From positions 1-64,000 of the IMG/VR virus record IMGVR_UViG_3300050015_000990: DNA of 64,000 nt, one strand, 5' to 3'. This DNA comes from a virus. Shown here in pieces: positions 15,420-55,571 of the stretch (position 1 is the first letter of the stretch; the number at the start of each line of letters is the position of its first letter). A model generated the notes under the pieces. It made no database searches, was not told the origin of the DNA, and worked only from the letters and a program-made list of their open reading frames with translations. A program made the position numbers and the translations under genes.

Positions 15420-16052
15420 CTAATATTCTTCTTCTTCATCATAATAGGCTTCAATAAGATCCGGATGTTTTTCTCTCAACATTTCAGCTACATCTTTTCT
15501 TGCTTTTCTAAGACGAGTCTTAACTGTATTAAGATTCCAACCTAAATCTGCGGCAATATCCTGGAGTCTTTTGTTATTTATTTCTCTTTCTAAAATAACT
15601 GTTCTATAAGGTTCCTCGAGTTTTTCAATTTCCTCAAGAGTTTTTTCATAAAGAGCTAAAGTTAATTTTTCTCCGGATGGACCAATAACTTCAATATTGA
15701 TCGAGGTTAAAGGAGTATAAACTTTAAGAAGTTTTGAATGATTTTCTGAAAGTTTATCTCTTGAAAGAGTTTTGCTTTTTAGCCTTAGCTGACCTAAAGC
15801 TTCATTCTTAGCAATAGCATATACCCAAGTACTAAAATTATAGTCCTTGTTGTATTGATCTATTTTTTCCCAAACAGCAATAAATGTTTTCGATACAATT
15901 TCTCTTGCGAGATCTATATCATGAACATAATTATAAGTAAAAGAAATAAGACCTGGTTTAAGCCTCTTAATAAGATCTGAAAATGTTTTATTATCCTTTT
16001 TGTCTAAAAAATCAATCGCAAGCGATTGAATCGAAATGATTTCTCTATGCAT
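15420..16052 (-). CDS. ECF-type RNA polymerase sigma factor
   Basis: A 210-residue sigma-70 family protein of the small extracytoplasmic-function architecture. Region 2 is at residues ~20-90 (LIKRLKPGLISFTYNYV, DLAREIVSKTFIAVWEKID, FSTWVYAIAKNEALGQLR). Region 4 is at ~130-195 (EEPYRTVILEREINNKRLQDIA and NLNTVKTRLRKARKDV, the helix-turn-helix that reads the -35 element). It should redirect host RNA polymerase to a set of phage promoters. The window also encodes a gp55-like late sigma, so two phage sigma factors are present. The gene ends in TAG immediately before the next gene, which shows TAG works as a stop here. Upstream is a strong terminator. Confidence 0.9.
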   Translation of the reverse strand: MHREIISIQSLAIDFLDKKDNKTFSDLIKRLKPGLISFTYNYVHDIDLAREIVSKTFIAVWEKIDQYNKDYNFSTWVYAIAKNEALGQLRLKSKTLSRDKLSENHSKLLKVYTPLTSINIEVIGPSGEKLTLALYEKTLEEIEKLEEPYRTVILEREINNKRLQDIAADLGWNLNTVKTRLRKARKDVAEMLREKHPDLIEAYYDEEEEY

Positions 16053-19697: not shown

Positions 19698-20080
19698 GAA
19701 TTTATATAAATATTTAGGGTATTATAAGTAGGATTATCCCAATGATAGGATTCGGTGTCATTATTTCTATTTATATTTGATACTAATTGTTCAAAAAAGA
19801 AAACATTAGTTAATGATTGGGGTAAAGTTATAACAATTCTTCCATCTCCGGGGGTATTTTCATGTTTCTTTTCAAATCTAACTTTAGTAGTAGGCTCCAT
19901 AATAATTTTAACCATGTATTTAAATTCAATTTTTTTATCCTCATCTGATGGATAAGTTGCCGGGTCAGCCATCATGGAGATAAGTTTTTTCTTTTCCCTA
20001 GCTTGCCCAATTTCCATAGCTTGTTTAGGATCCTGACCTCTTTCAAAGTCCATTTTTTCATATATTTTTATAGCTTTCAT
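19694..20080 (-). CDS. NFERG-tagged small protein
   Basis: A 128-residue protein started at ATG 20080, which overlaps the upstream stop as ATGA (a start two codons earlier is less likely). The tag is MKAIKIYEKMDFERGQDPKQ plus AMEIG, with Asp replacing the usual Asn. The body shares PTT.V.FE and the FFFEQLVSNINR helix with the protein at 34174-34554 (EPTTQISFE, FFFEGIQTII). It is a sub-family member with no recognised function, coupled on both sides to other tagged genes. Confidence 0.75.
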   Translation of the reverse strand: MKAIKIYEKMDFERGQDPKQAMEIGQAREKKKLISMMADPATYPSDEDKKIEFKYMVKIIMEPTTKVRFEKKHENTPGDGRIVITLPQSLTNVFFFEQLVSNINRNNDTESYHWDNPTYNTLNIYINS

Positions 20081-21651
20081 TTGCAAGAGGTTATTTTCTT
20101 AAATTCATCTAAACTAATATTTTCGTATTCCGAATCTTCAATATCATCAAATAAAATAATTCCTAATTCTTCTACATTTGTAAAATAAAGAGTATATGTT
20201 TCTTTAAAGGTCGGGGTTTTCTTATGAGTTTTTGTTGAAAAAATTATAAATTTAGGTTCGGGCTTATCCCAATCTATCTCTGAAACATCTTTAAAAATTG
20301 GGCACATTTTAGCTAATTGATGCATTTTTTTAAAGAGGTTTATTTTCGGAGCATCTGTTCTATAAGATCCAATATCTATGCTATCTTTAGGATCTAATCC
20401 TCGCTCAAAATTTATTGATTCTTTTAGATATATTTTATCTAAATATCCTTTAATTATATCTACATAAGTCATAAAAGCCCCGCCTTCTAGTATTAAAGTG
20501 AATAAGTTTCCTATAACCGATCTTGTACTATTAATTCCTTCTTTAAATGGATATTTTTTAATCTCTTCCGTAATAGTGTCTTCAAGTTCTTTTTCGGCGT
20601 CTTCTATTTCTTTAGTTTCGTGTTTGAATTTTTGGAAAGTATCAGATTTAGCATTATCATACTGATCGAGAATATAGCTATTATATTCTGATAGAGAACG
20701 AAACCCAACTTTTTTAACAGCTATTGTAATTTTTTTTATAATCGGCTTTGTTTTTTCCTCAATATCATCGATAATATGAATGGCTAATTCTTCAGCAGTC
20801 ATATCCCATTTCCATTTTCTCCCGACTCGTATAGAATCTTTAGGATCTATTCCTCTTTCAAAATTTACTGATTCTTTTATATAGGCTGGATCTAGTTTTT
20901 GCTTAATCATCTCTACATAAGTTTTGTGAGGACCTCCCTCAAGCTCTAAAGTAAAGAGATCCCCAATTAAATTCTTTTTAGCTTTTTCATCTCTGATTGG
21001 AAAATTTTCTACTTCAGATGCTATAGTTTCTTCTAATTCTTGTTCAGCATCGTCGATTTCTTTAGAGACAAAAGGAAACTTATCATCTTCGTCAAAGCGT
21101 AGATAAACATATTCTTGATATGTTTCTATATCTTTATACCCGGCTTTTTTGACAGCATCTTCTATTTTATTTAATATAGGCCTTACCTTATCACTTACAG
21201 TATCTAAAATATGGTTTGCTAATTCTTCAGCAGTCATATTCCAAATATGTTTTCGACCAATTCTTATTGAATCTTTTGGATCTATTCCTCGCTCGAAATT
21301 TTGGGATTCATTAAAATGATCAATTCCATTGATCTTTGCATAAAATTTATCAAAATGTTTTTTTGTAGGAATTAAATCCAGCGGAAAATCTTTTTCTTCT
21401 TCATCACAATGATAGCCCCATTCGGAAACTTTATATCCTCCATCTCTTTTAAGAGAAAATGCTCGATAAATTTTATTATTTTTAGGATCCTTAAACCACC
21501 AATAATAATCCCATCGAGGTATTTTTGAAAGATAAAGAACTCCTGAAATCATTTTATCCATGGCTCTTTTTCCAAGACGACCGATTTCCATAGAATCCTT
21601 GGGATCTATTCCTCTCTCAAATTTAATATTTTCTACAAGTTTAGCTCTCAC
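20077..21651 (-). CDS. four-module NFERG protein (polyprotein-like)
   Basis: A 524-residue protein with four copies of the tag: at the N-terminus (residues ~1-24), ~114-132, ~259-277 and ~411-428. Each has the form ES.NFERG[IL]DPKDS followed by M/I-x-[IV]-G. The second and third are followed by homologous ~130-residue helical modules (MTAEELA.HI.D..... and IG[DN]LFTL.LEGG...TYV), a clear tandem duplication. The first and last modules are different. Tags placed exactly between modules suggest either a fusion of formerly separate genes or a precursor cut at the tags. It overlaps the next gene by ATGA. Function unknown. Confidence 0.8.
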   Translation of the reverse strand: MRAKLVENIKFERGIDPKDSMEIGRLGKRAMDKMISGVLYLSKIPRWDYYWWFKDPKNNKIYRAFSLKRDGGYKVSEWGYHCDEEEKDFPLDLIPTKKHFDKFYAKINGIDHFNESQNFERGIDPKDSIRIGRKHIWNMTAEELANHILDTVSDKVRPILNKIEDAVKKAGYKDIETYQEYVYLRFDEDDKFPFVSKEIDDAEQELEETIASEVENFPIRDEKAKKNLIGDLFTLELEGGPHKTYVEMIKQKLDPAYIKESVNFERGIDPKDSIRVGRKWKWDMTAEELAIHIIDDIEEKTKPIIKKITIAVKKVGFRSLSEYNSYILDQYDNAKSDTFQKFKHETKEIEDAEKELEDTITEEIKKYPFKEGINSTRSVIGNLFTLILEGGAFMTYVDIIKGYLDKIYLKESINFERGLDPKDSIDIGSYRTDAPKINLFKKMHQLAKMCPIFKDVSEIDWDKPEPKFIIFSTKTHKKTPTFKETYTLYFTNVEELGIILFDDIEDSEYENISLDEFKKITSCK

Positions 21652-22342: not shown

Positions 22343-22843
22343 TTATTTTATACCATGTTTTTTCTTATACATTCCATTAAGAGGCCCAGCAACTAAACTT
22401 CCGTTATTTTTCATTCCATTATTTTGACTCCTTTTTTGTCTTGTCTCTAAAGAATGAATCATTCCAAGATTTTTTGATTGGCCCATTTCACTTTTACTAA
22501 TTTTTATTTTGGATTCTGCTGAATGAAATTTTCCCTTCATTGGGGATCTTCGGCCTTTTGGGGAACCCCCCTTACCTCCAGGATTTATATTATAGCAAAG
22601 TGGATTTTTCAATATTTCTTTAGTAATAAATTTAAATTCGAATTCTAATGCTTTCTTAAAATCTTCAAGTTCATGCAAAATTTCTTTTTTAAAATTTTCT
22701 CTTCCATATTTTTTAATAGCTCTTAGAATCATTTTTCCCGAGCCAAGATATTTATCATTTAAACTATTTGACGCATGAACTCCATAATAAAATTTTTCAT
22801 TTATTAAATTGGTGGTTTTATAAAAATAGTTAAATTTTTTCAT
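22343..22843 (-). CDS. GIY-YIG homing endonuclease beside tmRNA
   Basis: A 166-residue protein started at ATG 22843 (MKKFNYFYK); a GTG five codons upstream lies inside the tmRNA terminator and is rejected. The GIY-YIG variant is YFYKTTN...FYYGVHAS, followed by the conserved helix (LRAIKKYGRENFKKEIL), the Glu-containing segment (EFEFITKEIL) and a C-terminal NUMOD3-like repeat region (SAESKIKISKSEMG). It lies immediately downstream of the tmRNA gene. A second GIY-YIG gene is likewise adjacent to a tRNA-like sequence at 35 kb, which suggests RNA genes as landing sites. Confidence 0.85.
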   Translation of the reverse strand: MKKFNYFYKTTNLINEKFYYGVHASNSLNDKYLGSGKMILRAIKKYGRENFKKEILHELEDFKKALEFEFKFITKEILKNPLCYNINPGGKGGSPKGRRSPMKGKFHSAESKIKISKSEMGQSKNLGMIHSLETRQKRSQNNGMKNNGSLVAGPLNGMYKKKHGIK

Positions 22844-22871
22844 AAAAAAAGCTGGCACTTAGGCTGCCAGC
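22844..22871 (-). terminator. terminator of the tmRNA gene
   Basis: GCTGGCA (22851-22857) pairs perfectly with TGCCAGC (22865-22871). On the - strand it is followed by seven T. It lies just after the coding piece of the tmRNA and just before the endonuclease start at 22843. Confidence 0.85.
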
Positions 22872-23109
22872 AAGTCTCCTGAGAAATAGTGCTTCTTAAG
22901 CAGCCATTTTCATTTCTAAACTATTTTCGCCGTTTATTGCGTTTATTGGAATAATCATCATTTCCCTCAACGTGAAGTCAAAGCTAAGTCATCCCCAAAA
23001 AACCGTACTAACGCGACGGATTAGCGAATCTTAAGGCAATTGTGGAGATGCTGGGTTCTGCCCCCAGGTGTTTCACGCCTACTCTATAATTAGCTCTTTC
23101 GAGCACTCC
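22872..23109 (-). ncRNA. ssrA: circularly permuted (two-piece) tmRNA
   Basis: On the - strand the acceptor piece comes first. It has a GCTC-GAAA-GAGC hairpin (23093-23104), a T-arm with CTGGG/CCCAG (23063-23067 and 23051-23055), and then the 3' acceptor strand CATCTCC (23044-23050). A ~47-base intervening segment follows. The coding piece begins with GGGGATGACTTAGCTTTGAC (from 22996), close to the universal tmRNA 5' consensus. GGGGATG and CATCTCC pair over 7 bp (one G-U). TTCACG (22971-22976) and CGTGAA (23072-23077) form helix P2. A tag frame runs from GCA at 22940 to TAA at 22896: AINGENSLEMKMAA. Two-piece tmRNAs of bacteria have this gene order. The T-loop (GGCAGAA) is atypical and CCA is not encoded. 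The RNA should rescue stalled ribosomes and tag nascent proteins; maturation into two pieces is inferred. Confidence 0.85.
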
Positions 23110-23994: not shown

Positions 23995-24376
23995 TTCTTT
24001 GAAATATTTTAAATCTATTTTCCATTTGCATTCTTGTTCCATACATTCTTTTCTGCGGTAATATATCTAGTGATTCATTTCTTCTTTTTAAAGCTTCCGG
24101 TAAATTCCAGCATTTAAAATATTCTAAATGTATAATATGTTTAACTTCTTGAGGGTCATAAAATTTTTGAACCTTTAATATTAGAACAATCATATCTGGC
24201 CAAATAATATCCTGGGAACTTCTACCAGCAACACTGCTAACAAATGCACCTTTGCCATCGATATTAACTTCTTTTTTGGGTAAAAGAATATCTCCAATTT
24301 TAATATTATCCCAGGTTCTTAATCCGATATCCATAGCTTCTTTAGGATCTTGTCCTCTTATGAATTGTGCTCTCAT
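23984..24376 (-). CDS. NFERG-family protein, GDIL module
   Basis: A 130-residue protein with a shortened tag, MRAQFIRGQDPKEAMDIG, in which the central ERG is reduced to RG. The following module (TWDNIKIGDILLPKKEV) is homologous to both modules of the upstream gene (TWDKLKPGDILQNKKTV and KWTRIKVGDMIECIRRT), so it belongs to a GDIL sub-family. It overlaps the upstream gene by ATGA. The C-terminal 30 residues are basic. Function unknown. Confidence 0.75.
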   Translation of the reverse strand: MRAQFIRGQDPKEAMDIGLRTWDNIKIGDILLPKKEVNIDGKGAFVSSVAGRSSQDIIWPDMIVLILKVQKFYDPQEVKHIIHLEYFKCWNLPEALKRRNESLDILPQKRMYGTRMQMENRFKIFQRNES

Positions 24377-25191
24377 AATACTTTAAAATATTTTGACCAA
24401 GTATCTATTGGAGCTGTTCCCTTTACAGGAGAATATAGGGATGAGAATTTATTGATGTTGATACTTATAGCTTCCTTTTTTGTTTCAAAGGGAATAATAG
24501 TAATTCGAAGTCCTACTTCTTGAAGATCCACAATTGTTTTTATAACTCCTATATTGCCAGGATCAAAAGAATAATCACTATCCCCTAAATATTGTCCGTT
24601 AATATAATCTTTAAAAGTAAGAAAATCCTGATTACTTTTTTCTTCTACAACAGTTCTTCTTATACATTCAATCATATCTCCAACTTTAATACGAGTCCAC
24701 TTATTTCCAATATCCATGGAAATTTTAGGATCCTGTCCTCTCTCAAAATTTTGAGTTTCCTGGACTTTATTGTATTCTTTTGGCTGAATAATTTTAAAAT
24801 AATCATCCCACTCTTCAATAGAATGATCGACTGTATATGATGGTGGAAGATTTTTAGATGCAAGATCGCCAATAGGCTGTTTAATTCTTTCAGCCATAGA
24901 AAGAGCATGACGAAAAATCCCTGCCCAAACCAATTCAATTTCTAAGCTAGAAGTTCTATCCAATTCATTGCTCGAACGAATGGATTTAATAATCCAATAT
25001 TTTTCGGGGCTTATTCTATCTAAAAAAGTATCATTTGAAACAAATGAAATTTTATTAATATGAAGATATACAGTTTTTTTATTCTGAAGTATATCCCCAG
25101 GCTTTAGCTTATCCCATGTTAAAATACCGATATTTAATCGTTTAAGAGGAGAACCCTCCCTTTCAAAATCCAATGACTCTCTTACTATCAT
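24373..25191 (-). CDS. two-module NFERG protein, GDIL modules
   Basis: A 272-residue protein with a divergent N-terminal tag (MIVRESLDFEREGSPLKRLN then IG) and a canonical internal tag (ETQNFERGQDPKISMDIG, ~residues 146-163). Each tag precedes a homologous ~110-130-residue module that starts W..[IL]K.GD[IM][IL] and ends in D.W..YFK. This is a tandem duplication of the same unit that occurs alone in the next gene. The canonical ERG and DPK residues are partly lost in the first tag. Preceded by a terminator hairpin. Function unknown. Confidence 0.75.
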   Translation of the reverse strand: MIVRESLDFEREGSPLKRLNIGILTWDKLKPGDILQNKKTVYLHINKISFVSNDTFLDRISPEKYWIIKSIRSSNELDRTSSLEIELVWAGIFRHALSMAERIKQPIGDLASKNLPPSYTVDHSIEEWDDYFKIIQPKEYNKVQETQNFERGQDPKISMDIGNKWTRIKVGDMIECIRRTVVEEKSNQDFLTFKDYINGQYLGDSDYSFDPGNIGVIKTIVDLQEVGLRITIIPFETKKEAISININKFSSLYSPVKGTAPIDTWSKYFKVL

Positions 25192-47319: not shown

Positions 47320-47691
47320 CTAAATATAAATTATTAATTCATCTTCATTAGATTCTTCTAAATCAAATAAATAAGTTCCTTCTGGAATTTTTTGATGTAC
47401 CTTAAAATTAATAACTGTAGATCCCGGTCGTTTTTTATAAGTTAAACCTACATAAGATAAAATAGGTTTTTTAAAAGAAAGAATGTTTTTTTCTTCATTA
47501 TACTTAATGATAAAATCCTCATTATTATTAAACCAATCAGGATAATTTGTTATTTTTATTTCGGATCCACTTGAAGTACTATGTTTTACCTGGTTTTTAT
47601 AGTTAAAACTTTGAGTTAAGTGTTCATAATGAGATATAATAATTTTACTTTGCTCTAAAGTTTTAGATCCCTGGATTAATTTTGCTCTCAT
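47320..47691 (-). CDS. small protein with tag-like N-terminus
   Basis: A 123-residue protein starting MRAKLIQGSKTLEQSK, again sharing M[KR]A with tagged proteins but not the NFERG core. The C-terminal half is beta-rich (FIIKYNEEKNILSFKKP, STVINFKVHQKIPEGTYLFDLEE). It lies 2 bases upstream of the previous gene in the same operon. Its leader has AAATAAATAAAAAC. Function unknown. Confidence 0.6.
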   Translation of the reverse strand: MRAKLIQGSKTLEQSKIIISHYEHLTQSFNYKNQVKHSTSSGSEIKITNYPDWFNNNEDFIIKYNEEKNILSFKKPILSYVGLTYKKRPGSTVINFKVHQKIPEGTYLFDLEESNEDELIIYI

Positions 47692-49729: not shown

Positions 49730-50182
49730 TTACTGATTATTTTTAAAAGCATCTGTTTCTTTTGGAACAATATCAAAAGAAATAATTTTATAATTCACGA
49801 CTTCTTTATTTTCATTTACCTCGCCGGTTCCTCTTGGCCTTACTACAAAAAAAGTTGTAAATTTTGTCATATCATTCTTGATTAAACCCAAAAGTTTATG
49901 ACCATTAGGTGTATCAAGAATTTCGAGAGTCCCTTCTATAGCGTGTGATTCGGGATTGATATGAATTTCTTTAATTTTATGCGAAACATCACCTAATTTT
50001 CCTTTGAAATCCTCAGCTTCGGGATATCCTAGTTGTCCTACCATTGGAAATCTGTGATCTAGTTCTTCAAATTGTTTTACAATGTCTTCAGCACACTCTT
50101 TGGTGTACATTCTACCATTTTCATTGACGGTATCGTAATAAATAAATTTTCCTTTTAGATTCATTTTTTCAAATTTTTTCAT
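49730..50182 (-). CDS. gp21-like prohead-protease homolog lacking catalytic residues
   Basis: 150 residues from ATG 50182 (ATGA overlap; an ATG two codons up is possible). The pattern matches the T4 gp21/S78 peptidase family: ENGRMYTKECAEDIVKQF, VGQLGYPEAE, LGDVSHKI, IEGTLEILDTPNGHKLLGLI and a C-terminal YKIISFDIVPKETDAF. The catalytic His of the family (LGHP or LNHP) is Tyr (residue ~53) and the VSSRG Ser segment is replaced by TTFFVVRPRG. It is therefore probably inactive as a protease. It sits in the replication operon between UvsX-side genes and gp41, not among head genes. It could be a regulator or decoy; a separate active protease would be expected elsewhere. Confidence 0.6.
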   Translation of the reverse strand: MKKFEKMNLKGKFIYYDTVNENGRMYTKECAEDIVKQFEELDHRFPMVGQLGYPEAEDFKGKLGDVSHKIKEIHINPESHAIEGTLEILDTPNGHKLLGLIKNDMTKFTTFFVVRPRGTGEVNENKEVVNYKIISFDIVPKETDAFKNNQ

Positions 50183-50451
50183 TGCCATGGGTGTTTTAAT
50201 AAATGATATTTAGTCCATCCTTTATGCTCTATGTAGCCTAAATCCTGTAGTTTTGATAAATCATCTTCAAGATTTTCTCCAATACGACATCGAGTTTTTA
50301 GACTCACTTCATATTTAATAAAGTCTTCTTCTAATCGTGATTCTTTTTCTAAGAAGTTTACTATTTCAAAAAGAAGATCCTCATGAGTAGGTTCATCAAC
50401 AATACCGAGAAGATTTTTTATCTTTATTTTCTTTTTATTGATTCCTTTCAT
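50179..50451 (-). CDS. small protein, winged-helix-like
   Basis: A 90-residue protein with a basic N-terminus (MKGINKKKIKIKNLL) followed by HEDLLFEIVNFLEKESRLEED, CRIGENLEDDLSKLQDLGYIEHKG. The arrangement of a helix, a second helix and a beta hairpin with a glycine turn resembles a winged helix. It overlaps uvsX and the gp21-like gene by ATGA-type junctions. DNA binding is a weak inference; no family name. Confidence 0.5.
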   Translation of the reverse strand: MKGINKKKIKIKNLLGIVDEPTHEDLLFEIVNFLEKESRLEEDFIKYEVSLKTRCRIGENLEDDLSKLQDLGYIEHKGWTKYHLLKHPWQ

Positions 50452-52372: not shown

Positions 52373-53128
52373 TTATAATTTTTTATACCAGTATTTCATC
52401 TTATTTATCGCATCTTCTAAAGAATCATATGGTATTTCATCTGTCTGAGAATTAGGAAACAATCTGGAGATTTCATATCCTGCTGCCCAATTTGCTCCTC
52501 CGTTATCTGGATCTGGTTCTGGAACATAAGCTAGATAATAAAAATATGTTGTTGCTCCATCTGTTCTTTCAATTCCTATCTCAATAAAAAGCTTTTGATT
52601 AAGCTCTTTAATTCTCATATAGGGATTATCTTCATACTCAAGAATATCCGGACCCCACCATTCAACAGCCATTTCTTCAATAGCTTTTCTTAATTGCTTA
52701 TAAGCTATTTTCATTTTTCTTCCTTGAACATCACCAAGTTCCATAGCATCTATAGGTTCTATTCCTCTCTCGAAGTTTACAGATTCCTTTAGCTTTGTTT
52801 CAGCATAATCTTTTAATCTTTCTTTTGTACTTTCATCTGTATTTGGCCATAAATCCTGGAGGGCATCTTCAACTTCTTTTATTCTTGGCTTTTCTTTGTC
52901 TATCCAATCCCCGAAAATAGAAGATGAACTAGTAGTTAAATGACCCCTTTTAACACAAAATTCAATATATTTTCTATATCCTTTAGAAGTTCCGGGAGTC
53001 ATAGCATGATCAATCCATCTTTGATATTTTTTTATATCATCCTCATCAGCCCATGTTTTATGACCAATTAATTCCTTAGCCGATGGAATCTTATAAATTC
53101 CAATATTCATAGAATCTTTAGGATCCAT
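52373..53128 (-). CDS. two-module NFERG protein, start ambiguous
   Basis: From ATG 53128 (MDPKDSMNIG) it has 251 residues, but the tag core continues upstream in the same frame as KANESVNFERGMDPKDSMNI without an ATG, back to a TAG at 53192-53194, the stop of the gene upstream. The true product may therefore arise by read-through or an alternative start. A second tag (LKESVNFERGIEPIDAMELG) sits near the middle (~residue 118) and is followed by DVQGRKMKIAYKQLRKA and a C-terminal helix (SLEDAINKMKYWYKKL) shared with other members. Function unknown. Confidence 0.65.
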   Translation of the reverse strand: MDPKDSMNIGIYKIPSAKELIGHKTWADEDDIKKYQRWIDHAMTPGTSKGYRKYIEFCVKRGHLTTSSSSIFGDWIDKEKPRIKEVEDALQDLWPNTDESTKERLKDYAETKLKESVNFERGIEPIDAMELGDVQGRKMKIAYKQLRKAIEEMAVEWWGPDILEYEDNPYMRIKELNQKLFIEIGIERTDGATTYFYYLAYVPEPDPDNGGANWAAGYEISRLFPNSQTDEIPYDSLEDAINKMKYWYKKL

Positions 53129-53191
53129 TCCTCTTTCGAAATTTACGGATTCATTGGCTTTTAAAGGAGGAATAAGTTTAGCTGTCCAATC

Positions 53192-53545
53192 CTATTTATT
53201 AAGAAAGATTCTTGTTTTTAACATTGCTTTTTCTAGAGTTCCAGCAGGATTTTGATCCTCAATATTGTCGGTTTTAATATTAGAATATCCTGCCCAATAA
53301 TGTTCTCTTTCTTTGTCATAATAAATCCAATATTTATAAGGATGAACAAGATTTGGTTGTTTGCCATTAAATTCCACTAAAATACCTTCTTCTTTCAGTT
53401 GTGTTTGAATTGTCTTTAAATCAAGATTATAGTCTCGGCAAATTATTCGAACTCCTTGTTCCATTCGATCTCTAATTCGAAGAAATTTATTGCCAATATC
53501 CATAGCAGTTTTAGGATCTTCGCCTCTTATAAAATGTGCTCTCAT
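53192..53545 (-). CDS. NFERG-family protein, followed by in-frame TAG
   Basis: A 117-residue protein with the short tag MRAHFIRGEDPKTAMDIG. The body (RIICRDYNLDLKTIQTQLKE, YKYWIYYDKEREHYWAGYS) ends in the family C-terminal helix (GTLEKAMLKTRIFLNK). The TAG after it is followed in the same frame by DWTAKLIPPLKANESVNFERG, i.e. the missing N-terminus of the next gene. So the two are one frame broken by a single amber codon. It overlaps the upstream gene by ATGA. Confidence 0.7.
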   Translation of the reverse strand: MRAHFIRGEDPKTAMDIGNKFLRIRDRMEQGVRIICRDYNLDLKTIQTQLKEEGILVEFNGKQPNLVHPYKYWIYYDKEREHYWAGYSNIKTDNIEDQNPAGTLEKAMLKTRIFLNK

Positions 53546-53952
53546 ATATTTTCAATCCATCCTTTTAGTTTAGAAACAGCCGGGTCTAAATTCCTATAGG
53601 TACTCATGTCCGATGCCCCCCTTGCAACTTTAGCCCATTTGGCAACAAATTTTTGGGGTACCTCCTCATTTAAAGGATTTCCTACCCAATTCAAAGAAAA
53701 ATAATATTCTTTATATTCTAAGTTCACATCAATTGCATCTGTTTCCCATTGCCCTCTATTTGCAAATCCCTGATTTATTTCTCGATATTCTATTTCAAAT
53801 TTTGGTTTAAAATATGTTTGTATTGAGTTTTCTATAAGCTTTTCGAATTCCTTTACAAGAATATCTGCAATACGTTTTAGTTTTCTTCCTCTAACATCTC
53901 CGAGATTCATTGCATCCATAGGGTCTTCCCCTCTTATAAAATGTGCTCTCAT
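53542..53952 (-). CDS. NFERG-family small protein
   Basis: A 136-residue protein with tag MRAHFIRGEDPMDAMNLG followed by DVRGRKLKRIADILVKE, a helix shared with the DVQGRKMK, DVGGRECK and DIEGRKIK segments of relatives. A beta-rich middle (KFEIEYREINQGFANRGQW, YKEYYFSLNWVGN) and a C-terminal YRNLDPAVSKLKGWIENI complete the module. Start ATG coupled (ATGA) to the upstream member. Function unknown. Confidence 0.75.
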   Translation of the reverse strand: MRAHFIRGEDPMDAMNLGDVRGRKLKRIADILVKEFEKLIENSIQTYFKPKFEIEYREINQGFANRGQWETDAIDVNLEYKEYYFSLNWVGNPLNEEVPQKFVAKWAKVARGASDMSTYRNLDPAVSKLKGWIENI

Positions 53953-54347
53953 ATTATATTAGAATTTTTTTCGTAAAATTCTATTTGTTTAATAAGTGTG
54001 TCAATAGTTTCAAATGCTAAATGATCTTCTCGCCCCCTACTAGAAATAAGAGTCATTTCATATCTTGGAGCAAAATATGTTACTTCTAAGGTATAAGTGT
54101 TCATATGTTTTGTTCTAAAATTTACTTTATAAAAAGAAATATCATCCCTGGTTGTTATATTTTGAGTTTTTCGAGAAAATCTAGAAGATAATTCTTTAGC
54201 TGCATTATAGATTTCATCTCTTCTTATACTAAATTCTGCTTTTTTTCTCTTACACTCTCTTCCTCCTACATCACCAATCCCCATAGCATCTTTAGGATCT
54301 TGTCCTCTTTCAAAGTTAATATTTTCAAATACTTTCGAAGCTCTCAT
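53949..54347 (-). CDS. NFERG-tagged small protein
   Basis: Starting at ATG 54347 (MRASKVFENINFERGQDPKD then AMGIG) it has 132 residues; a frame start 7 codons further up is not tag-like. Followed by DVGGRECKRKKAEF and a short beta/alpha body ending in AFETIDTLIKQIEFYEK. The ATG overlaps the stop of the broken gene upstream as TAATG. It is a full-length, canonical tag in the middle of the cluster. Function unknown. Confidence 0.75.
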   Translation of the reverse strand: MRASKVFENINFERGQDPKDAMGIGDVGGRECKRKKAEFSIRRDEIYNAAKELSSRFSRKTQNITTRDDISFYKVNFRTKHMNTYTLEVTYFAPRYEMTLISSRGREDHLAFETIDTLIKQIEFYEKNSNII

Positions 54348-54727
54348 TATTTTTTTTGATTTAACCAATTTTCTAATCTATAAGTAGAATCGTCTATTGT
54401 TTCATCTAAAGATTCTTCGACATCATTTAATTCTTCTACTCCCTTGTTATTATAATCAACATCTTTATACCCAGAATAGAAACGATCTTTCATTGTATCA
54501 TATCCCATATACCAAAAGTAACCCCGGTAATAAAACCCGCATTCAATATATGGACCTTATTGTCCTGTACGATCCTCTATTGGAAACCTTCCATTCAAAT
54601 TTATGGTTAAATCCTTTAAAGCAGCAATAATCGGTCTTTTCCAAGCAAGAGATTTTCTTTGTTCGGCTCTCCCTATATCTAAAGAATCTAATGGATTTTC
54701 ATTATGTCTTATAAATTGAGCTCTCAT
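54347..54727 (-). pseudogene. NFERG-family gene broken by an in-frame TAA
   Basis: ATG 54727 opens MRAQFIRHNENPLDSLDIGR, runs 56 codons and meets TAA at 54557-54559. The frame then continues open for 69 codons (GPYIECGFYYRGYFWYMGYD ... LDETIDDSTYRLENWL) to a TAA that overlaps the next ATG. The part after the stop has the strand plus C-terminal-helix layout of its relatives, and the distal stop is at the normal gene boundary. So the gene was whole until a single nonsense change, or is read through. A sequencing error is the alternative. Confidence 0.7.
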
Positions 54728-55140
54728 ATTCCTTCTTTGATCCATTTTTTTATCTGTTCTAAACAATCCTCAAGTTTCCCAAGAGTAGAAGGACTCGAAC
54801 CTTCACGTCTTTCCCAAATCCAATTTCCATCTCCTAAATTATATCCACACAAAAACATTTTAAATCCTCTATTTCCCTCTGAATATCCTATAATATATTC
54901 GCATTCTTTCTTTTTCATTGTTTCCATAAAGTTCAATCCTACATTTTCTATATTTGATTTTTCATCTTTGTAATAAAAATCCCTTATCTCTCTAGGATTA
55001 AATTTATTTTTTTTCATAAAGGGAATGATAACATCGTTTTTTAATTCTGAAAAGTATTTTCTCATTTTTCTCTCTTCTACTCGACCTATATCTAGAGTAT
55101 CCAAAGGATTTTCATTATGTCTTATAAATTGAGCTCTCAT
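54724..55140 (-). CDS. NFERG-family small protein
   Basis: 138 residues from ATG 55140 (MRAQFIRHNENPLDTLDIGR; ATGA overlap with the upstream stop). The tag variant RHNENPLD[TS]L[DN][IL]G is shared with two neighbours and replaces RG.DPK..M.IG. Body: VEERKMRKYFSEL, then strands (CEYIIGYSEGNRGFKMFLCGY) and a C-terminal STLGKLEDCLEQIKKWI helix. Recent tandem duplication with the genes on both sides is evident. Function unknown. Confidence 0.75.
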   Translation of the reverse strand: MRAQFIRHNENPLDTLDIGRVEERKMRKYFSELKNDVIIPFMKKNKFNPREIRDFYYKDEKSNIENVGLNFMETMKKKECEYIIGYSEGNRGFKMFLCGYNLGDGNWIWERREGSSPSTLGKLEDCLEQIKKWIKEGI

Positions 55141-55571
55141 TGGCATTTTTTGTTTTTGCTGTCTTTAGAGTTTTTTTTCGAATTTGCAGTTATATAACTC
55201 TTGATCCTCGATTTTAATATTTTAGTAATATTTTGAATACTATTATCATCTGTCCATTTATTTGATTGCCATTCTAAAGTTCCCGATGTCTCATCATCAT
55301 ATCTATACCATTGAAGAAAATGTTTATATTTTCCAGCTGGATCATCCGCTAAGTCAAAATGCATTTCAAAAATATATTTTCCTTTTTTAAATATTATTTT
55401 TGGATCCAATACATTTTTCATATTATTTTTAACTTCCTTATATTCTAAAAAAATAAATCCCGGAAAAGATTCAACAGTAGTTTTGATTAATTTTATTTTT
55501 CTACCCTCAATATCGCCAAGATTTAAAGTATCTAAAGGATTTTCATTATGTCTTACAAATTGAGCTCTCAC
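55137..55571 (-). CDS. NFERG-family small protein, GTG start
   Basis: A 144-residue protein whose start is GTG at 55571 (MRAQFVRHNENPLDTLNLGD); no ATG is available and the tag dictates the start. It has the DIEGRKIK segment, strands (YIFEMHFDLADDPAGKYKHF) and a C-terminal SIQNITKILKSRIKSYI helix plus a Lys-rich end. First gene of the cluster, with the leader AATAAATAAATAAAAT. Function unknown. Confidence 0.75.
   Translation of the reverse strand: MRAQFVRHNENPLDTLNLGDIEGRKIKLIKTTVESFPGFIFLEYKEVKNNMKNVLDPKIIFKKGKYIFEMHFDLADDPAGKYKHFLQWYRYDDETSGTLEWQSNKWTDDNSIQNITKILKSRIKSYITANSKKNSKDSKNKKCQ

Follow-up and report, generated by a model that had tools for sequence, protein, structure and literature searches.

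In phage T4, the internal proteins IPI, IPII, IPIII and Alt enter the head via N-terminal capsid-targeting sequences, and the prohead protease gp21 cuts after L/I-x-E (PMC9026906). Lak phages decode TAG as glutamine with a CTA tRNA (PMC6784885). The virus described here is represented by a linear, incomplete record of 65.9 kb, of which 64 kb (the window) were analysed. Its portal is T4-like (PF07230, 3.4e-54), and the nearest portal relatives in the phage collection are Lak megaphages, at 41–43% identity. Among its genes are many that share a short peptide tag, and one of these tags lies behind an amber codon with no start codon of its own. Most likely the amber is ordinary and the oddity is a tagged gene without a start, at one junction that has decayed or been altered.

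The tag has the consensus (L/I/V)-x-E-S-(V/I/L)-N-F-E-R-G-x-D-P-K-x-x-M-x-I-G. Seventeen records including this one carry it, with 151 copies, 104 of them distinct. A pattern search of viral_contigs returned 26 stretches, none of which re-covers the amber site, and the same pattern had no match in genome_contigs; an artificial tag peptide found no match among isolated phages, and the relatives found through the RecA-like neighbour are without tags. Sixty-nine of the distinct tags are N-terminal with their own start, 33 lie in open polyproteins, one (the amber site) is start-less behind a stop, and the last (G002:46892), which opens with its own ATG, is a questionable match. The N-terminal tags sit on dissimilar proteins. 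Over 75 tagged proteins only F12, P18 and G25 are invariant, and the only domains recognised are ankyrin repeats (two members), one GNAT-containing fusion and a few unnamed PHROGs. Within the internal tags, E occupies position -4 in 32 of 33 cases; the residue two places ahead of this E is L, I, V or F in 27, and the one that follows it is S in 24. The cleavage motif is matched by 46 of the 69 N-terminal tags. Nearly all internal tags of the multi-tag polyproteins carry (L/I/V)-x-E↓S, where the arrow marks the presumed cut. Further multi-tag polyproteins, besides those of the window (Table 1), occur at L118:2220-4334, with six tags, and at L102:5724-7694. A subset of tagged genes begins MNFERG, MNFVRG or MNFTRG, without the cleavage half (L051:4130-5135, L097:6666-7838 and L124:7824-8273).

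The (L/I/V)-x-E↓S of the internal tags fits the site rule of the T4 gp21 prohead protease, and because of this match the tagged genes look like those of internal head proteins. Judged by its sequence, the tag is most likely a T4-like capsid-targeting and prohead-protease cleavage sequence, which would be cut after the E of the motif. There is good motivation for supposing that tagged modules, whether single or joined in a polyprotein, would be packaged into the head, cleaved and so become internal head proteins. The relatives G006 and G002 encode a full gp21-like protease with GELDHP and SISSR motifs (S77, 3.7e-14 for G006), whose H and S would be the catalytic residues. In G006 the protease is an 844-aa protein (L099:768-3299) with a gp21-like N-terminus; the remainder holds several (L/I/V)-x-E sites and is probably the scaffold. 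The only gp21-like gene in the present, incomplete record is a short homologue in which the H and S motifs are replaced, and an active protease may be encoded outside the recovered sequence.

All genes at the amber site lie on the minus strand, a point on which the first-pass annotation was silent. It had described the gene ending at the TAG as continuing in frame into the next ORF, and this proved exact: the 117-aa tagged ORF, ending in RIFLNK, is followed past the TAG by 21 sense codons and then by ATG 53128, the first start codon of a 251-aa ORF. The frame beyond the TAG stays open for 272 codons. It had also described the interval as free of ATG, GTG and TTG, which holds for all 21 codons. 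The tag that spans ATG 53128 is not a chance similarity, since its coding DNA is 91% identical over 47 bases to the tag copy at 20831-20877 (E 2.6e-13) and its ESVNFERG agrees with the family consensus at every position; its motif is A-N-E, which is off the (L/I/V)-x-E rule. If the two ORFs are separate genes, their sharing one frame is a one-in-three coincidence. The single-module neighbour genes finish at about the position of the TAG, and in a low-confidence structure model of the upstream module (pLDDT 60) the last helix covers residues 100-116 of 117, that is, up to the stop. This model gave no fold match with E <= 0.001. Pfam and PHROGs gave neither ORF a match above the cut-off, no homologue of either was found beyond the tag itself in viral_contigs or phage records, and the collections searched held no second sequence of the site.

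Table 1 Features of the amber site and of the tag system in the window (window coordinates)
Feature	Position	Strand	Remark
Polyprotein with four tags (one N-terminal, three internal); intact counterpart of the multi-tag frame	20077..21651	-	
Second polyprotein, one internal tag and a divergent N-terminal tag	24373..25191	-	
Short homologue of T4 gp21 (Peptidase S77), H and S motifs of the relatives' enzyme replaced	49730..50188	-	
Intact two-module ORF downstream, 251 aa from ATG 53128	52373..53128	-	Context score of the ATG typical of an internal Met
Second, internal tag ESVNFERGIEPIDAMELG, preceded by LK (motif LKE↓S)	52733..52786	-	
Full tag ESVNFERGMDPKDSMNIG, spanning ATG 53128	53099..53152	-	
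Leader without a start and first half of the tag (DWTAKLIPPLKANESVNFERG; 21 codons)	53129..53191	-	Leader-like
TAG stop codon	53192..53194	-	TAG is an ordinary stop in this genome
Upstream tagged gene, 117 aa, MRAHFIRGEDPKTAMDIG..., stand-alone module	53192..53545	-	Last helix reaches the stop in a low-confidence model
Neighbouring tagged gene, 4-base overlap with the next	53542..53952	-	
Neighbouring tagged gene, MRASKVFENINFERGQDPKDAMGIG	53949..54335	-	
Two neighbouring tagged genes, variant MRAQF(I/V)RHNENPLDTL	54724..55571	-	

TAG is an ordinary stop in this genome. It terminates 9 of the record's 81 genes, and coding density is 94% under the standard code 11. After the other eight TAG codons the frame closes again within 1–26 codons, as it does after most TAA and TGA; only the amber site stays open. 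The sigma-like gene (15420-16052) is properly ended by TAG, as had been observed in the first pass, and its frame closes 16 codons later. Wholesale recoding (code 15), previously called unlikely, can be excluded on these counts. No tRNA gene was found in the 64-kb window, nor in the record's final 1.9 kb. The check for suppressor tRNAs that had been proposed thus gave nothing in this record itself and, in the relative G006 (L096:3442-3517) and again in G003, a lone tRNA with a CUA anticodon (amber suppressor type; 57.8 bits, one mismatch at the end of the anticodon stem). In G006 ordinary ORFs are still terminated by TAG and no tag is split by an amber. RNA structure 3' of the TAG was not significant, with 13 of 200 shuffles folding as well (z -1.6).

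The record also carries a permuted (two-piece) tmRNA on the minus strand (22859-23100; Rfam RF04321, 48.8 bits) with the readable tag AINGENSLEMKMAA, and a GIY-YIG-like ORF (22343-22858) comes directly after it. Two-piece tmRNAs are present in the relatives G011 and G016 too, and have reportedly been seen in phage before.

ATG 53128 is probably not a true start. Start contexts were scored with a cross-validated matrix built from 443 long ORFs, which separates starts from internal ATGs with an AUC of 0.93. The score of ATG 53128 is -4.8; 97.7% of the 443 starts score higher, and 58% of internal ATGs, whose median is -4.0, score equal or higher. Shine-Dalgarno sequences precede 3 of 60 gene starts, equal to the background (6%). 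Instead, the starts of this group are preceded by A/T-rich DNA, and across the whole window the bases from about -17 to -9 are strongly enriched in A, with no Shine-Dalgarno signal. The best start context in the stretch lies directly after the TAG, at 53188 (+1.7), a recovery due in part to the A/T-rich end of the first gene. A start just after the TAG is to be expected for this operon, as the tagged genes are closely packed: of 67 genes with an N-terminal tag, 49 have their start between -20 and +15 bases from the preceding stop, 26 of these with a 4-base overlap.

The peptide encoded after the TAG resembles a leader. Matched against the N-terminal leaders of tagged genes, its 13 residues beat 99.5% of shuffles, sharing KLIPP with MKLIPESLEESLNFERG and TAKLI with MRAKLVENIKFERG; the match is short, eight start positions were tried (as in the shuffles), and 1 of the 33 internal tags scores higher. 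Matched against the sequences that precede internal tags, the peptide does no better than shuffles, 35% of which reach its score. At no post-TAG codon with a good context is ATG a single base change away. Among these codons only TGG 53188 could become TTG by one change; the tag's F would then be preceded by 16 residues, against 2–13 in most intact genes.

As TAG is ordinary here, ATG 53128 is a poor start, the post-TAG peptide is leader-like and tagged genes start near the previous stop, we favour a normal amber stop followed by a lost start. On balance, it is probable that the amber is the normal end of the first gene, that the second is a tandem tagged gene without its former start, and that the tag is a T4-like targeting and cleavage sequence. 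The two genes would lie end to end, like the rest of the operon, with the amber truly ending the first. The second would have begun less than about 10 bases past the amber, with an N-terminal leader and tag reading approximately ...AKLIPPLKANE↓SVNFERGMDPKDSMNIG. A recent loss of its start codon would leave a leader with no start, ahead of a downstream ORF that is still intact. Any initiation at the internal ATG 53128 would be weak at best, and its product would lack the SVNFERG half of the tag. The absence of the start is observed directly, as are the ordinary role of TAG, the poor context of ATG 53128 and the uniqueness of the case: across 17 contigs only 1 of 104 distinct tags has neither a start nor an open upstream frame, which argues for a lost start. 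We infer the position of the old start, its loss (as opposed to replacement by a near-cognate codon) and the function of the tag.

Two kinds of simpler option were missing from the first-pass annotation, namely recent decay (a lost start codon or a nonsense change) and sequence error. A recent point mutation could have placed the TAG at the junction of a once-continuous polyprotein with an internal tag. The common frame would then need no coincidence, ATG 53128 resembles a gene interior, both halves are otherwise intact, and there are precedents: 33 distinct tags are internal to open polyproteins, and the 524-aa ORF of the window accounts for three of these. The TAG sits, however, where stand-alone modules end, and the peptide after it is like an N-terminal leader and unlike other linkers; we regard a nonsense change as unlikely, while granting it a real chance. 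Either a lost start or a nonsense change would make the site recent, because the 272 codons past the TAG are still open. A sequence or assembly error, in the TAG codon or in a real start codon just 3' of it, has a small probability. The site is known from a single record, the near-identical contig G001 stopping at window position 47,624, but the two assemblies of the virus show a single base difference and no indel over 47,415 bases. Other duplicate contigs agree as closely, so that an error in any particular codon has a low prior probability.

According to the first-pass annotation, the complete tag could be made only by read-through, suppression or a non-canonical start. Ordinary initiation indeed cannot make it; the evidence does not support the further step, that read-through is needed or used. 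Functional read-through or suppression would make a certain amount of a two-gene fusion whose internal tag is complete, and is favoured by the open codons across the TAG, by the CUA tRNA of the related tag-bearing phage G006 (also of G003), by the portal's kinship with Lak phages, in which TAG is read as glutamine (PMC6784885), and by the incompleteness of the record, so that virus tRNAs may sit elsewhere. Yet the arrangement is unique among the 104 tags, G006 has no amber-split tag, the contigs counted use TAG as an ordinary stop, no tRNA was found in this record, and the RNA fold past the TAG is unremarkable. We therefore consider read-through quite improbable. It is highly improbable, too, that a suppressor tRNA reads a small share of the ambers between tagged modules, so that one operon would give the single module as well as a precursor of two fused modules that the protease could cleave. 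Near-cognate initiation, for example at ATT 53173, would be logically sufficient for a complete tag, and the relative G013/G004 has ATT at the Met position of a tagged leader, but there the upstream frame is open. With a context score of -2.8, ATT 53173 falls below 95% of starts, and 70 of 70 listed N-terminal tags use ATG, GTG or TTG (the only starts looked for), leaving such initiation extremely unlikely.

The amber itself is of little weight; the tag system around it is the better lead. The amber site does hint at how arrays of tagged genes may become polyproteins. Since these genes overlap or nearly touch, the loss of one start and one stop fuses neighbours; at the amber site the start seems to have been lost and the stop kept. 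In G013 (L127:1011-1634), and also in G004, an acetyltransferase ORF is fused in frame to the tag leader IKAKFVYENINFERG. This second Met-less leader has ATT in place of the ATG of other leaders, and its frame is open to the upstream acetyltransferase domain. If confirmed, dozens of dissimilar modules that share one tag, with a T4-like motif both N-terminally and within polyproteins, would extend T4 capsid targeting to a modular, head-packaged set.

With genes of programmed stop-codon read-through, the amber site shares a single stop separating two in-frame ORFs; unlike them, it exists in one copy only, the stop-interrupted arrangement is not conserved in relatives (1 of 104 distinct tags), and the downstream structure is not significant. 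Among code-15 phages, the Lak megaphages (PMC6784885) are the source of the closest portal homologues, and a relative has a CUA tRNA, whereas TAG here is an ordinary stop in a genome densely coding under code 11. The T4 internal proteins offer the third comparison. Unlike theirs, the conservation of the present tag runs past the presumed cut (SxNFERGxDPKxxMxIG), tags also lie inside long ORFs as polyproteins, some tagged genes start at MNFERG without the cut motif, and about 20 tag copies occur in this one record. Like the T4 system, this one combines a short N-terminal sequence shared by small proteins that are otherwise unrelated, (L/I/V)-x-E where the cut is expected, a T4-like portal in the same record and, in G006 and G002, a gp21-type protease with intact H and S motifs.
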